Shown in pieces: positions 14,183 to 17,714 of a stretch of 64,000 nucleotides of DNA. Origin of the DNA: Spartobacteria bacterium LR76 (GTDB taxonomy: Bacteria > Verrucomicrobiota > Verrucomicrobiia > Chthoniobacterales > Terrimicrobiaceae); NCBI GenBank assembly GCA_003054655.1, contig QAYZ01000015.1, positions 62,001-126,000 of the forward strand, given 5' to 3'. Below the pieces are notes generated by a model. That model was not told where the DNA came from. It searched no databases and saw only the letters and a list, made by a program, of their open reading frames with translations. Each line of letters starts with the position of its first letter. Position 1 is the first letter of the stretch. A program made the translations under genes and the position numbers.

Positions 14183-15535
14183 ATGCCTTCCGTGGATTCC
14201 ATTACAGCGGAACTGCAGTCCCTCGACCGGCAGTATCAGATCCATCCCTTCACCAATCACTCCGACATGCATGGGACGGGTACGCACATCGTCCAGAGGG
14301 GAGACGGGTGCTATTTCATCGACGAAACCGGCACGCCCATCCTCGATGGCCTGGCCGGGCTGTGGTGCGTGAATGTCGGGTACAACTGCCGCGAGATCGT
14401 GGATGCCGTGACGGCCCAGATGACGCAACTCCCCTACTACCCGTCGTTCTTCAATTCCACCACCGAGGCGCCGATTCGAGTAGCCGAGTTTCTCGCGAAA
14501 CACGCACCGGCCCGATTGAACCACACGATTTTCTCCAATTCAGGCTCCGAGGCGAATGAGACGGCTCTCAAGGTCATTCGCGGGTACTGGAAGCTCAAAG
14601 GCCAGCCGCAGCGTCGCAAGATTCTCTGCCGCACCTATGCCTACCATGGCGTGACGCTCGCCACCACCAGCCTGACGGGCCTCGTTAACTGCCAGGAACC
14701 GTTTGATCTCCCGCTTGAGGGCTTTATACGCATTCCCGGGCCTTATCACTATGGCGCTCGCAGCGAACTGACCCCGGAGGACTACGGCAAGTGGTGCCTG
14801 GAAGAAACCCGCCGCGTCATTTTGGCCGAGGGTCCGGAGACGATCGGAGCGCTCTTTGCCGAGCCGATCCAGGGCGCGGGCGGGGTGATCATCCCGCCAA
14901 AAGGTTATCTGAAAGGCTTGCGGGAAATCTGTCGGGAGTACGGCATACTGTATGTCTCTGACGAGGTGATTACCGCCTTTGGCCGGGTGGGATCATGGTT
15001 CGCCAGCGAAATGTGGGATCTCGATCCCGACATTATTTGCGTGGCCAAGGGTATCACCAGCGGCTACCTGCCCCTCGGCGGCACGATGGTCAGCGACGAA
15101 ATCGCCGAGCCTCTACTCAAGGGCGGCTACTTTGCCCATGGGTTCACCTACTCGGGCCACCCCTCCTGCTGTGCGGCAGCGTTGGCGAATCTCCAGTACA
15201 TCGAGGCTCATGGCCTGGTCGCCAAGGTTAAGAACGATCTCGGCCCGTACTTCGAGGCCAAGCTCGCCAGCCTCGCCTCGCATCCGGCCGTGTCGGAGGT
15301 GCGAGCCATCGGTCTCATCGGAGCGGCGGAGCTGGTTCCCAAGGGGGGCAGGGACGCGCTCACCCCGTCCTCACTGCTCGGGGCCAAGGCGTCCAATCTG
15401 GTCCGGGCGGAAGGAGCCATGGTGCGAGGCATCCGCGACCTCATCGCCATCTCGCCCCCGCTGATTATCTCCCGGGAGCAGATCGACAGCCTCTTCGCCA
15501 GCATCGTGCGAGGTCTGGACAAGCTTTGGGATTAG
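14183..15535 (+). CDS. Class III PLP-dependent aminotransferase (omega-aminotransferase)
   Basis: A 450-residue enzyme of fold type I. It shows FSNSGSEANETALK, AYHGVTLATTSLTG, a DE pair in YVSDEVITAFGR, and the PLP-binding lysine in CVAKGITSGYLPLGG. Such enzymes move the terminal amino group of beta-alanine, putrescine, GABA or similar amines to pyruvate or 2-oxoglutarate. The TFTNH-type start (HPFTNHSDMHG) and length fit the beta-alanine:pyruvate or putrescine:pyruvate group, but the substrate is not settled. It is divergent from the GT2 gene with a 126-bp spacer. A polyamine-related amidase is encoded at 50545-51429, far away. Confidence 0.88.
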   Translation: MPSVDSITAELQSLDRQYQIHPFTNHSDMHGTGTHIVQRGDGCYFIDETGTPILDGLAGLWCVNVGYNCREIVDAVTAQMTQLPYYPSFFNSTTEAPIRVAEFLAKHAPARLNHTIFSNSGSEANETALKVIRGYWKLKGQPQRRKILCRTYAYHGVTLATTSLTGLVNCQEPFDLPLEGFIRIPGPYHYGARSELTPEDYGKWCLEETRRVILAEGPETIGALFAEPIQGAGGVIIPPKGYLKGLREICREYGILYVSDEVITAFGRVGSWFASEMWDLDPDIICVAKGITSGYLPLGGTMVSDEIAEPLLKGGYFAHGFTYSGHPSCCAAALANLQYIEAHGLVAKVKNDLGPYFEAKLASLASHPAVSEVRAIGLIGAAELVPKGGRDALTPSSLLGAKASNLVRAEGAMVRGIRDLIAISPPLIISREQIDSLFASIVRGLDKLWD

Positions 15536-15615: not shown

Positions 15616-16638
15616 ATGGCGACGGCTGCCGGAGACGACGCGGAAATCGTTCTACCACCCGAGGATGTGGAAATCCCACTCGCGGTGGATACGAAGCCGT
15701 CCCGTCCTGTCCGCAGTGCACGGTACTTCTACCGCCTCGAGAACAACCGCCTCGTCGACTGTCCCGATGAGGAGGCCCAGATTTTTGTCTACATCGCGCC
15801 GACGATCGACGATGAGGCCGAGCTGCAGGAACTCTACAATATTGATTATCACACCCTGCAGTCTTCGCTCGATCCGGATGAGCTGTCCCGGCTTGAGTTC
15901 GAAACCGACCACGCCGCGCTGATCTTCAAACGCCCCAAGAGCTTCTGCGCCGACGACAATTTCCTGCTCAAGCTCACCTCGACCGGCGTCTTCCTCTACG
16001 AGGAGCAACTCGTCATCGTCATGCCCGACGACGCGCCGCTCTTCGAGGGCCGCGTCCCCTTTCAGATCCAGTCCATCCACGACGTCATCCTCCGCCTCCT
16101 GTATCAATCCACCCTCCACTTTGAGGGGCATCTCAAGGCGATCAACATGCTGTCCGACTCCCTCGAGCGGCGCATCAGCACCTCGCTGGAAAACAGGTAT
16201 CTCCTCAACATGTTCGCGCTGGAGAAGAGCCTCGTTTACATCGTGAACTCGATCAGCTCCAATGGCGCTCTGCTGGAGCGCCTGCGCTCCTCGGCCGAGA
16301 GGCTCGGATTCGACCGCGACCAGACCGGCATCATCGAGGACATGATCATCGAGAACAAGCAGTGCTACCGCCGCGCGGAAATTCATACCCAGGTCATCGG
16401 CGGCCTCATGGATGCCCGGGCCTCGATCGTCAGCCACAACCTGAACCAACTGATCAAAAAGTTCACGATCTGGACCGTTGCGATCATGCTGGCCAATCTC
16501 GTGATCGGCGTTTTTTCGATGAATGTTGATCTGCCCCTGCCCGAGGATCACTCATGGTGGCCTTTCCTGCTGATCAACATGCTCGCTCTGGGCACAGCGG
16601 GACTCGTTTTCTGGATTTGGCGCGTGAAAAAGTGGTGA
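15616..16638 (+). CDS. CorA-like divalent cation transporter with altered GMN motif
   Basis: A 340-residue protein with a large cytoplasmic N-domain, a long stalk helix and two C-terminal transmembrane helices, the CorA plan. CorA channels carry Mg2+, Co2+ or Zn2+ inward through a pentamer whose GMN loop selects the ion. Here the loop reads VFSMNVDLP, so the Gly of GMN is Ser. The second helix (WPFLLINMLALGTAGLVFW) and a basic C-terminus are normal. It overlaps the next gene by four bases (GTGA), linking it to a putative ligand-gated channel. Its ion specificity is uncertain. Confidence 0.88.
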   Translation: MATAAGDDAEIVLPPEDVEIPLAVDTKPSRPVRSARYFYRLENNRLVDCPDEEAQIFVYIAPTIDDEAELQELYNIDYHTLQSSLDPDELSRLEFETDHAALIFKRPKSFCADDNFLLKLTSTGVFLYEEQLVIVMPDDAPLFEGRVPFQIQSIHDVILRLLYQSTLHFEGHLKAINMLSDSLERRISTSLENRYLLNMFALEKSLVYIVNSISSNGALLERLRSSAERLGFDRDQTGIIEDMIIENKQCYRRAEIHTQVIGGLMDARASIVSHNLNQLIKKFTIWTVAIMLANLVIGVFSMNVDLPLPEDHSWWPFLLINMLALGTAGLVFWIWRVKKW

Positions 16639-17714
16639 GGACATTGTTATTGGCGTTTCTCCTGTGGAGCGCCGCCCCCATGGTCTGGTCACAGGAAGCT
16701 ACGCCGGCACAGGCGCCTTTGAAGGTCGCAGTCTCCGGGGACATCCCATTTGTCATCAGCAACGATGATAATACCTTCTCGGGATACTCGATCGAGGTCT
16801 GGGAGGATATCGCAGCCCATAATGGCTGGACATTTGTCTACACCAAGTACTCGAGCAAGTTTGATGCGCTGGCCGCGATGAACAGGAAAGACGCCGACGT
16901 GATCGTAGGCGATCTCGGCATCCTGAGCGTCCTGCAGGGGAAGGTGGAGTTTTCCCAACCGTACTTTCGCTCCGGCCTGCATATCATGGTGAGCGATGCG
17001 CGTCCGCATACTTTTGCCCGCATCTTTTCCGATGTCTACAATTGGGGGCATCTCAAGCCCTTCTGGTACCTTCTGGGAGCAATCGTCGTAGGTACCGTGT
17101 TCGTCGCGTGGTTTGAGCGGAAGCACAATCCGGATTTCCCCAAGGGGCACCGCGATGCCCTGGCAGAGGCCTTCTACTATGTCATTTCGCTGTCGTTGGG
17201 TAAAAGCGCCTACAAGGGATTTGGCGGATGGTTCGGCCGCATCGTCATGTGCGTCTGGACGATTCTCAGCGTGGTGATCGTCGCTTATGTGACATCCTCC
17301 ATCACCAGCGCGATGACCGTGGAGAGCCTGCGCGGGCATATCGCCGGACCTCAGGATCTCCCAGGGCACACGGTCGGTGTGGTGAAGGAGACCGCTGCTA
17401 TCCTGTATCTGCGTCAGCACTCGATCGAGACACACGAATACCCAACCCTCGAGGCCGCCGTACAGGCGCTGATCAAAGGCGAGGTGCCAGCGTTGGTCGG
17501 AGCCGCACCAGAGCTGCAATACTACGACAACACCCATCCGAAACTGCCAATCACGGAGGTAGGCCCCGTCTTCTCGCCGTACAATTACGGATTTGCGCTT
17601 CCGATCGGCAGTCCGATTCGGCTGCAAATGAATAGCGCCATCCTCGAACTTCAGGAGCGAGGCACTCTACTCGACCTGGGACGCAAGTATTTCGGATCAG
17701 TCTTTCAGCCTTAG
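16635..17714 (+). CDS. GluR0-like prokaryotic glutamate-receptor-type ion channel
   Basis: The start is taken as GTG 16635 because it overlaps the corA stop and gives a clean signal peptide (RTLLLAFLLWSAAPMVWS) in a 359-residue protein. The order is S1 half of a periplasmic solute-binding domain (DIPFVIS to VEFSQPYF), helix M1 (FWYLLGAIVVGTVFVAWFE), a re-entrant pore segment, helix M2 (RIVMCVWTILSVVIVAYVTS), and the S2 half. This is the GluR0 architecture. The pore reads SLSLGKSAYKGFG rather than a K+-selective TVGYGD, so selectivity is unclear. It may be ligand gated by an amino acid; this is inference. An amino-acid permease gene follows convergently. Confidence 0.85.
   Translation: MRTLLLAFLLWSAAPMVWSQEATPAQAPLKVAVSGDIPFVISNDDNTFSGYSIEVWEDIAAHNGWTFVYTKYSSKFDALAAMNRKDADVIVGDLGILSVLQGKVEFSQPYFRSGLHIMVSDARPHTFARIFSDVYNWGHLKPFWYLLGAIVVGTVFVAWFERKHNPDFPKGHRDALAEAFYYVISLSLGKSAYKGFGGWFGRIVMCVWTILSVVIVAYVTSSITSAMTVESLRGHIAGPQDLPGHTVGVVKETAAILYLRQHSIETHEYPTLEAAVQALIKGEVPALVGAAPELQYYDNTHPKLPITEVGPVFSPYNYGFALPIGSPIRLQMNSAILELQERGTLLDLGRKYFGSVFQP

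Follow-up and report, generated by a model that had tools for sequence, protein, structure and literature searches.

The window analysed here, a stretch of 64,000 nucleotides from Spartobacteria bacterium LR76, encodes a prokaryotic iGluR-like channel that belongs to a clade with basic filters, has lost, throughout its genus, both residues that contact alpha-amino acids, and is read in a frame overlapping that of an upstream CorA-type gene. Our preferred reading, to which we give a probability of about 40%, is that of a non-K+, Group 2-type channel with a basic filter that would be weakly selective, of low conductance and probably permeable to anions, would give no response to alpha-amino acids, and would serve CorA as an accessory. 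Because non-K+ prokaryotic iGluRs were known already, in the form of Group 2 as described in the relevant passages of Ger 2010 (PMC2950845), the channel is a real and testable variant within a known family, not a new kind of machine. What is new is the basic-filter clade, the conserved corA-channel pair and the repeated loss of an arginine within the linked clade; the literature searched yielded no description of an all-basic filter clade, of the corA pair or of a stepwise loss of the amino-acid site, and no anion-selective or lysine-filter bacterial iGluR.

Read from position 16635, the channel frame extends to 17714 and specifies 359 residues comprising a signal peptide, S1, M1, a re-entrant pore, M2 and S2. 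In Pfam, an SBP_bac_3 match (1.2e-15) is split over residues 29-354 around a Lig_chan match (7.4e-11, residues 144-246), placing the S1 and S2 halves of an SBP-type domain on either side of M1, pore loop and M2, as in iGluRs. Among PDB sequences, the nearest solved structures are the bacterial GluR ligand-binding domains 2pyy and GluR0 1ii5, and the next solved relatives after the bacterial iGluRs are a plant glutamate receptor, amino-acid binding proteins and animal iGluRs. An AlphaFold model built from seven sequences (mean pLDDT 78, pTM 0.60; an input of two close channel sequences only gave pLDDT 37 and an unusable model) was matched by Foldseek to LBD-TMD chains of AMPA, kainate and delta receptors over ~370 columns (E ~1e-20). 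Sequence and model together place the protein in the prokaryotic iGluR family by fold and descent, and they bear out the S1-M1-P-M2-S2 order of the original prediction.

Table. Features of the corA-channel locus (positions within the window)
Feature	Position	Strand	Remark
Class III aminotransferase gene (PRK07480-like)	14183..15535	+	80 bases upstream of corA
CorA-type (2-TM-GxN superfamily) divalent cation channel gene	15616..16638	+	PF01544; overlaps channel gene
SMN codons, residues 301-303	16516..16524	+	in place of GMN
7-nt overlap, GTGGTGA	16632..16638	+	channel start inside corA stop
iGluR-like channel gene	16632..17714	+	start GTG at 16632 (conserved position) or 16635 (as first reported)
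Putative signal peptide of channel	16635..16697	+	sequence inspection
S1 half, ligand-binding domain	16716..17009	+	
Leu100	16932..16934	+	where iGluRs carry the alpha-carboxylate-binding Arg
M1 helix, residues 140-164	17052..17126	+	AlphaFold model
Pore helix, residues 172-187	17148..17195	+	AlphaFold model
Filter loop LGKSAYKGFGG, residues 188-198	17196..17228	+	Lys190 at 17202-17204
M2 helix, residues 199-233	17229..17333	+	AlphaFold model
S2 half, ligand-binding domain	17334..17702	+	
Ala290	17502..17504	+	where iGluRs carry the alpha-amino-binding Asp

The two genes had been described as overlapping by 4 nt. The overlap itself is confirmed, and its length is more likely 7 nt, because the last 7 nt of corA open with a start codon in the 11 linked loci checked (GTG in the window's genus, otherwise ATG), at the conserved position 16632 in the window, and because one congener (L034) lacks the GTG at 16635.

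The pore does lack a TVGYG-type filter, as had been proposed. Its sequence, SLSLGKSAYKGFG, aligns with TMTTVGYGDKTP in a paralogue encoded by this genome and reads SLSLGKSAYKG at the place of the TxxTVGYG characteristic of Group 1; iGluR topology combined with a P region that does not resemble a K+ filter is the pattern of Group 2. The genome holds three iGluR-like channels, namely L003 with the K+-type TMTTVGYGDKTP, L002 with LLVGGADNKGP, and the window channel. Among the relatives aligned, K+-type filters are not universal and G[KR] filters recur across several genera and phyla, a recurrence that rules out an assembly error as the source of the pore divergence. In a tree of 52 channels (IQ-TREE), the G[KR]-filter channels form one clade with 100/100 support and a stem of 1.0 changes per column, hosted by Opitutales and other Verrucomicrobiota, proteobacterial plasmids (Paracoccus, Agrobacterium, Devosia, Roseibium, Phyllobacterium, Chelatococcus), a Salmonella plasmid and one phage contig. 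The filter segment is free of Asp and Glu in 28 of 29 clade members, with a net charge of +1 to +4; Asp or Glu is present in this segment in 22 of the 24 other prokaryotic iGluRs, where the charge is mostly zero. Animal, plant and GluR0 receptors are reported to share a conserved acidic residue at position +4 relative to the Q/R/N site (PMC12226733). In the basic clade this residue is absent and a basic one (Lys, Arg or, in L007, His) is fixed at +1 or +2, whichever register is used, the register being uncertain by one residue and the window's genus being one residue shorter than most relatives.

On Salmonella plasmids (L084, typed as conjugative, and hits H15-H17 and H20), the basic-filter iGluR-like gene is annotated merely as a transporter substrate-binding domain protein. 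Another basic-filter iGluR-like gene, with the filter SGRPAARKN, lies within a phage head gene block at L115:2893-4008 (IMGVR_UViG_3300020599_000097), flanked by genes for a portal protein with a C-terminal Acb1 domain and for a head maturation protease, and appears to be a ligand-gated-type ion channel gene carried by a phage or prophage. K+-type iGluR-like genes occur on several IMG/VR viral contigs of 40-264 kb (L117-L121), and no relative was found in the INPHARED phage records. A Rhizobium plasmid (L085) carries the filter MTQASTGHRG, and tandem iGluR-like genes at L033:205-2556 (G092), with the filters MTQAGAAAGEK and MTQIGGAAAGGK, represent a further unusual pore type.

The ligand-binding domain has diverged as well. 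In the passages concerned, Ger 2010 (PMC2950845) describes the S1 Arg, which binds the alpha-carboxylate, and the S2 Asp, which binds the alpha-amino group, as totally conserved in both prokaryotic groups. The window channel has Leu100 in place of the S1 Arg and Ala290 in place of the S2 Asp or Glu, and the same two residues are found in all three members of its genus. L007 has Asn for the Arg and Ser for the Asp; Asn replaces the Arg and the Asp is retained in L012, L014, L015 and L055; and L008 and L009, both linked to corA, keep both contacts. Altogether, 8 rows of the linked clade have Leu or Asn instead of the Arg, which is retained in 24 of 24 rows outside the basic-filter clade and in all other readable clade members. 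On the channel tree it was lost at least twice, always inside the corA-linked group. With both contacts gone, alpha-amino acids are unlikely to be ligands in the usual mode in the window's genus, which speaks against the ligand control that had been suggested, with amino acids as the ligands to try, and the label 'amino-acid receptor' would not be supported despite the homology to iGluRs.

A channel with a basic filter was found in 12 of 26 genomes of the window's family, representing genera g1, g2, g4 and g5 (in G022 it is cut by a contig end), and it lies directly behind corA in 11 of these 12, showing that the pair is conserved. Basic-filter channels outside the family (L011, L013, L016-L019 and the plasmid loci) are not adjacent to corA. 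Because all linked channels fall into one group of the tree, which includes a single unlinked member, L012 (support 85/76; IQ-TREE, 52 channels), the simplest history of the link would be one origin followed by inheritance. An apparent channel fragment behind corA in L043 proved to be an unrelated frame and was discarded, and no Rfam elements were found near the pair. The aminotransferase gene precedes corA in all four genomes of family f9, which have no channel, and, along with the channel, in g1, g4 and g5; aminotransferase-corA is the older pair. In g2, no aminotransferase was found in the upstream DNA examined, and the corA-channel pair remains. The channel thus stays with corA while other neighbours change, which argues for a functional tie, though not for any particular mechanism, and the coupling of the two genes is real.

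The upstream protein is a CorA by its PF01544 domain (2.6e-30, 106 bits vs a cut-off of 27), and its loop reads FSMN where textbook CorA has YGMN, a departure from GMN and from the broader GxN that agrees with the SMN reported originally. A second, canonical YGMN CorA is encoded elsewhere in the genome (L086). SMN-CorA is present in nearly all of the 26 searched genomes of the window's family, and all readable CorAs of the family have FSMN. This loop also occurs in f11, in f9 (three of the four genomes, with FGMN in the remaining one) and in CorAs of other Verrucomicrobiota families that have no adjacent channel; the loops of the wider CorA subfamily are FGMN, FSMN and GGMS. SMN, carried by essentially all CorAs of this subfamily, is a trait of the subfamily, not of the corA-channel pair. 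Its widespread occurrence without the channel rules out co-evolution of the two, and the altered selectivity motifs that the original prediction linked are not tied together, since FSMN is common in loci with no neighbouring channel. Among the more distant members, a large group of relatives of CorA within the phylum (L092, L094, L099-L114) carries GGMSEF or FGMSEF, with the signature Asn changed to Ser. The glycine of GMN is said to be essential in Thermotoga CorA, and a natural SMN family would for this reason be of interest of its own for testing.

Between the window and two congeners, the dN/dS of the channel is ~0.06-0.1, a rough estimate with synonymous sites near saturation, and this rules out both a chance open reading frame and a pseudogene. 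Across M1-P-M2 the ratio is ~0.02-0.03, the lowest in the protein. The altered pore is clearly under strong constraint. In the comparison with L034, corA has a dS of 0.43, about one third of the value for the channel gene that overlaps it (1.26); the difference could stem from codon bias, from recombination or from an additional constraint acting on the corA DNA.

From these observations we infer tetrameric assembly, conductance, permeant ions, gating and cooperation with CorA. Going by its family, this pore-loop channel would be a tetramer, and a ring of four lysines, with the usual acidic residue gone, would make the pore neither K+-selective nor divalent-permeable. Edited animal receptors with a basic filter residue show reduced divalent permeability and some chloride permeability, and the basic ring of edited GluA2(R) gives lower conductance and Ca2+ permeability and a PCl/PCs of ~0.14 (PMC6754398). 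By this precedent the lysine-ring pore would be weakly selective, of low conductance and probably anion-permeable, although GluA2(R), the one precedent, stays mainly cation-permeable (PMC6754398). The ligand domain would, in this genus, be deaf to alpha-amino acids and either constitutive or tuned to another ligand. Because the channel is presumably co-translated with a CorA-type divalent channel, it would most likely share the membrane with CorA and act as an accessory there, such as a charge-balancing shunt while CorA carries divalent cations. Gene order is the sole pointer to this cooperation, and the restriction of the link to one family, together with the many SMN-CorAs that have no adjacent channel, weighs against it. 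A bolder version, which we consider unlikely, has the lysine ring turning the pore of an iGluR-fold clade from cation- to anion-permeable, with one branch losing amino-acid gating and becoming a dedicated charge-balance partner of CorA. We found no electrophysiology on any member of the basic-filter clade in the literature, and no functional study of non-K+ prokaryotic iGluRs.

Other readings draw on the same evidence. The channel might be an ordinary sensory iGluR, a nonselective cation channel gated by amino acids or small molecules, with corA as an incidental neighbour or one shared for expression only. Arg and Asp are indeed kept in most of the basic-filter clade, including the linked L008 and L009, and no clade member from outside the family is close to corA; we nonetheless find this doubtful, as the window's genus has lost both contacts and most linked relatives have lost the Arg, and as the pair persists in 11 of 12 carriers in the family amid changing neighbours. 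It is quite unlikely that the protein conducts no ions and serves as a receptor-like subunit, binding the CorA-type channel and regulating it. The tight gene pair, the decayed ligand site and a filter altered beyond known conducting sequences would suit such a role, but constraint on the protein is strongest in the pore, and distant members without corA retain the same filter, which argues that the filter is in use.

The original prediction combined both genes into a joint, perhaps ligand-controlled, cation system, of which the gene coupling stands, while the cation and ligand-controlled parts are not supported. Ligand-controlled passage of related (divalent) cations through both pathways would accord with the conserved overlapping pair and with the deviation of both proteins from textbook motifs. 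However, loss of the acidic filter residue and gain of a fixed basic one disfavour divalents by the precedent of the edited receptors (PMC6754398), FSMN occurs independently of the channel, and the amino-acid contacts are gone, making this reading highly improbable.

Most fast excitatory signalling in animals is carried by receptors for which prokaryotic iGluRs are the simplest models, and the basic-filter clade offers small natural proteins in which the filter is fully changed and, in one lineage, the amino-acid site disabled. The clade would test the capacity of the iGluR fold for anion permeability and for partnership with divalent cation uptake, and the corA neighbour provides a concrete hint of a physiological role for the channel.

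Compared with known systems, the window channel shares with GluR0 (Synechocystis slr1257) and Group 1 a signal peptide, the S1-M1-P-M2-S2 order, the fold, and the absence of an N-terminal domain and of M4, but it has GKSAY where these have TVGYGD and has lost their Arg and Asp contacts, while the paralogue L003 in the same genome carries a K+ filter. With Group 2 (Ger 2010, PMC2950845) it has in common the topology and a non-K+ pore region, of undefined selectivity in that account, whose passages concerned do not single out a basic filter and describe Arg and Asp as totally kept, whereas the window channel has lost both. Edited animal GluA2(R) likewise presents a ring of positive side chains in the filter, but its Arg occupies the Q/R site and the +4 Asp is kept, in contrast to the Lys at +1/+2 and the lack of any acidic residue in the window channel. 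The partner protein, for its part, matches CorA, ZntB and Mrs2 (2-TM-GxN) in its CorA domain, KKW C-terminus and x-M-N loop, and differs from them in reading FSMN in place of YGMN.
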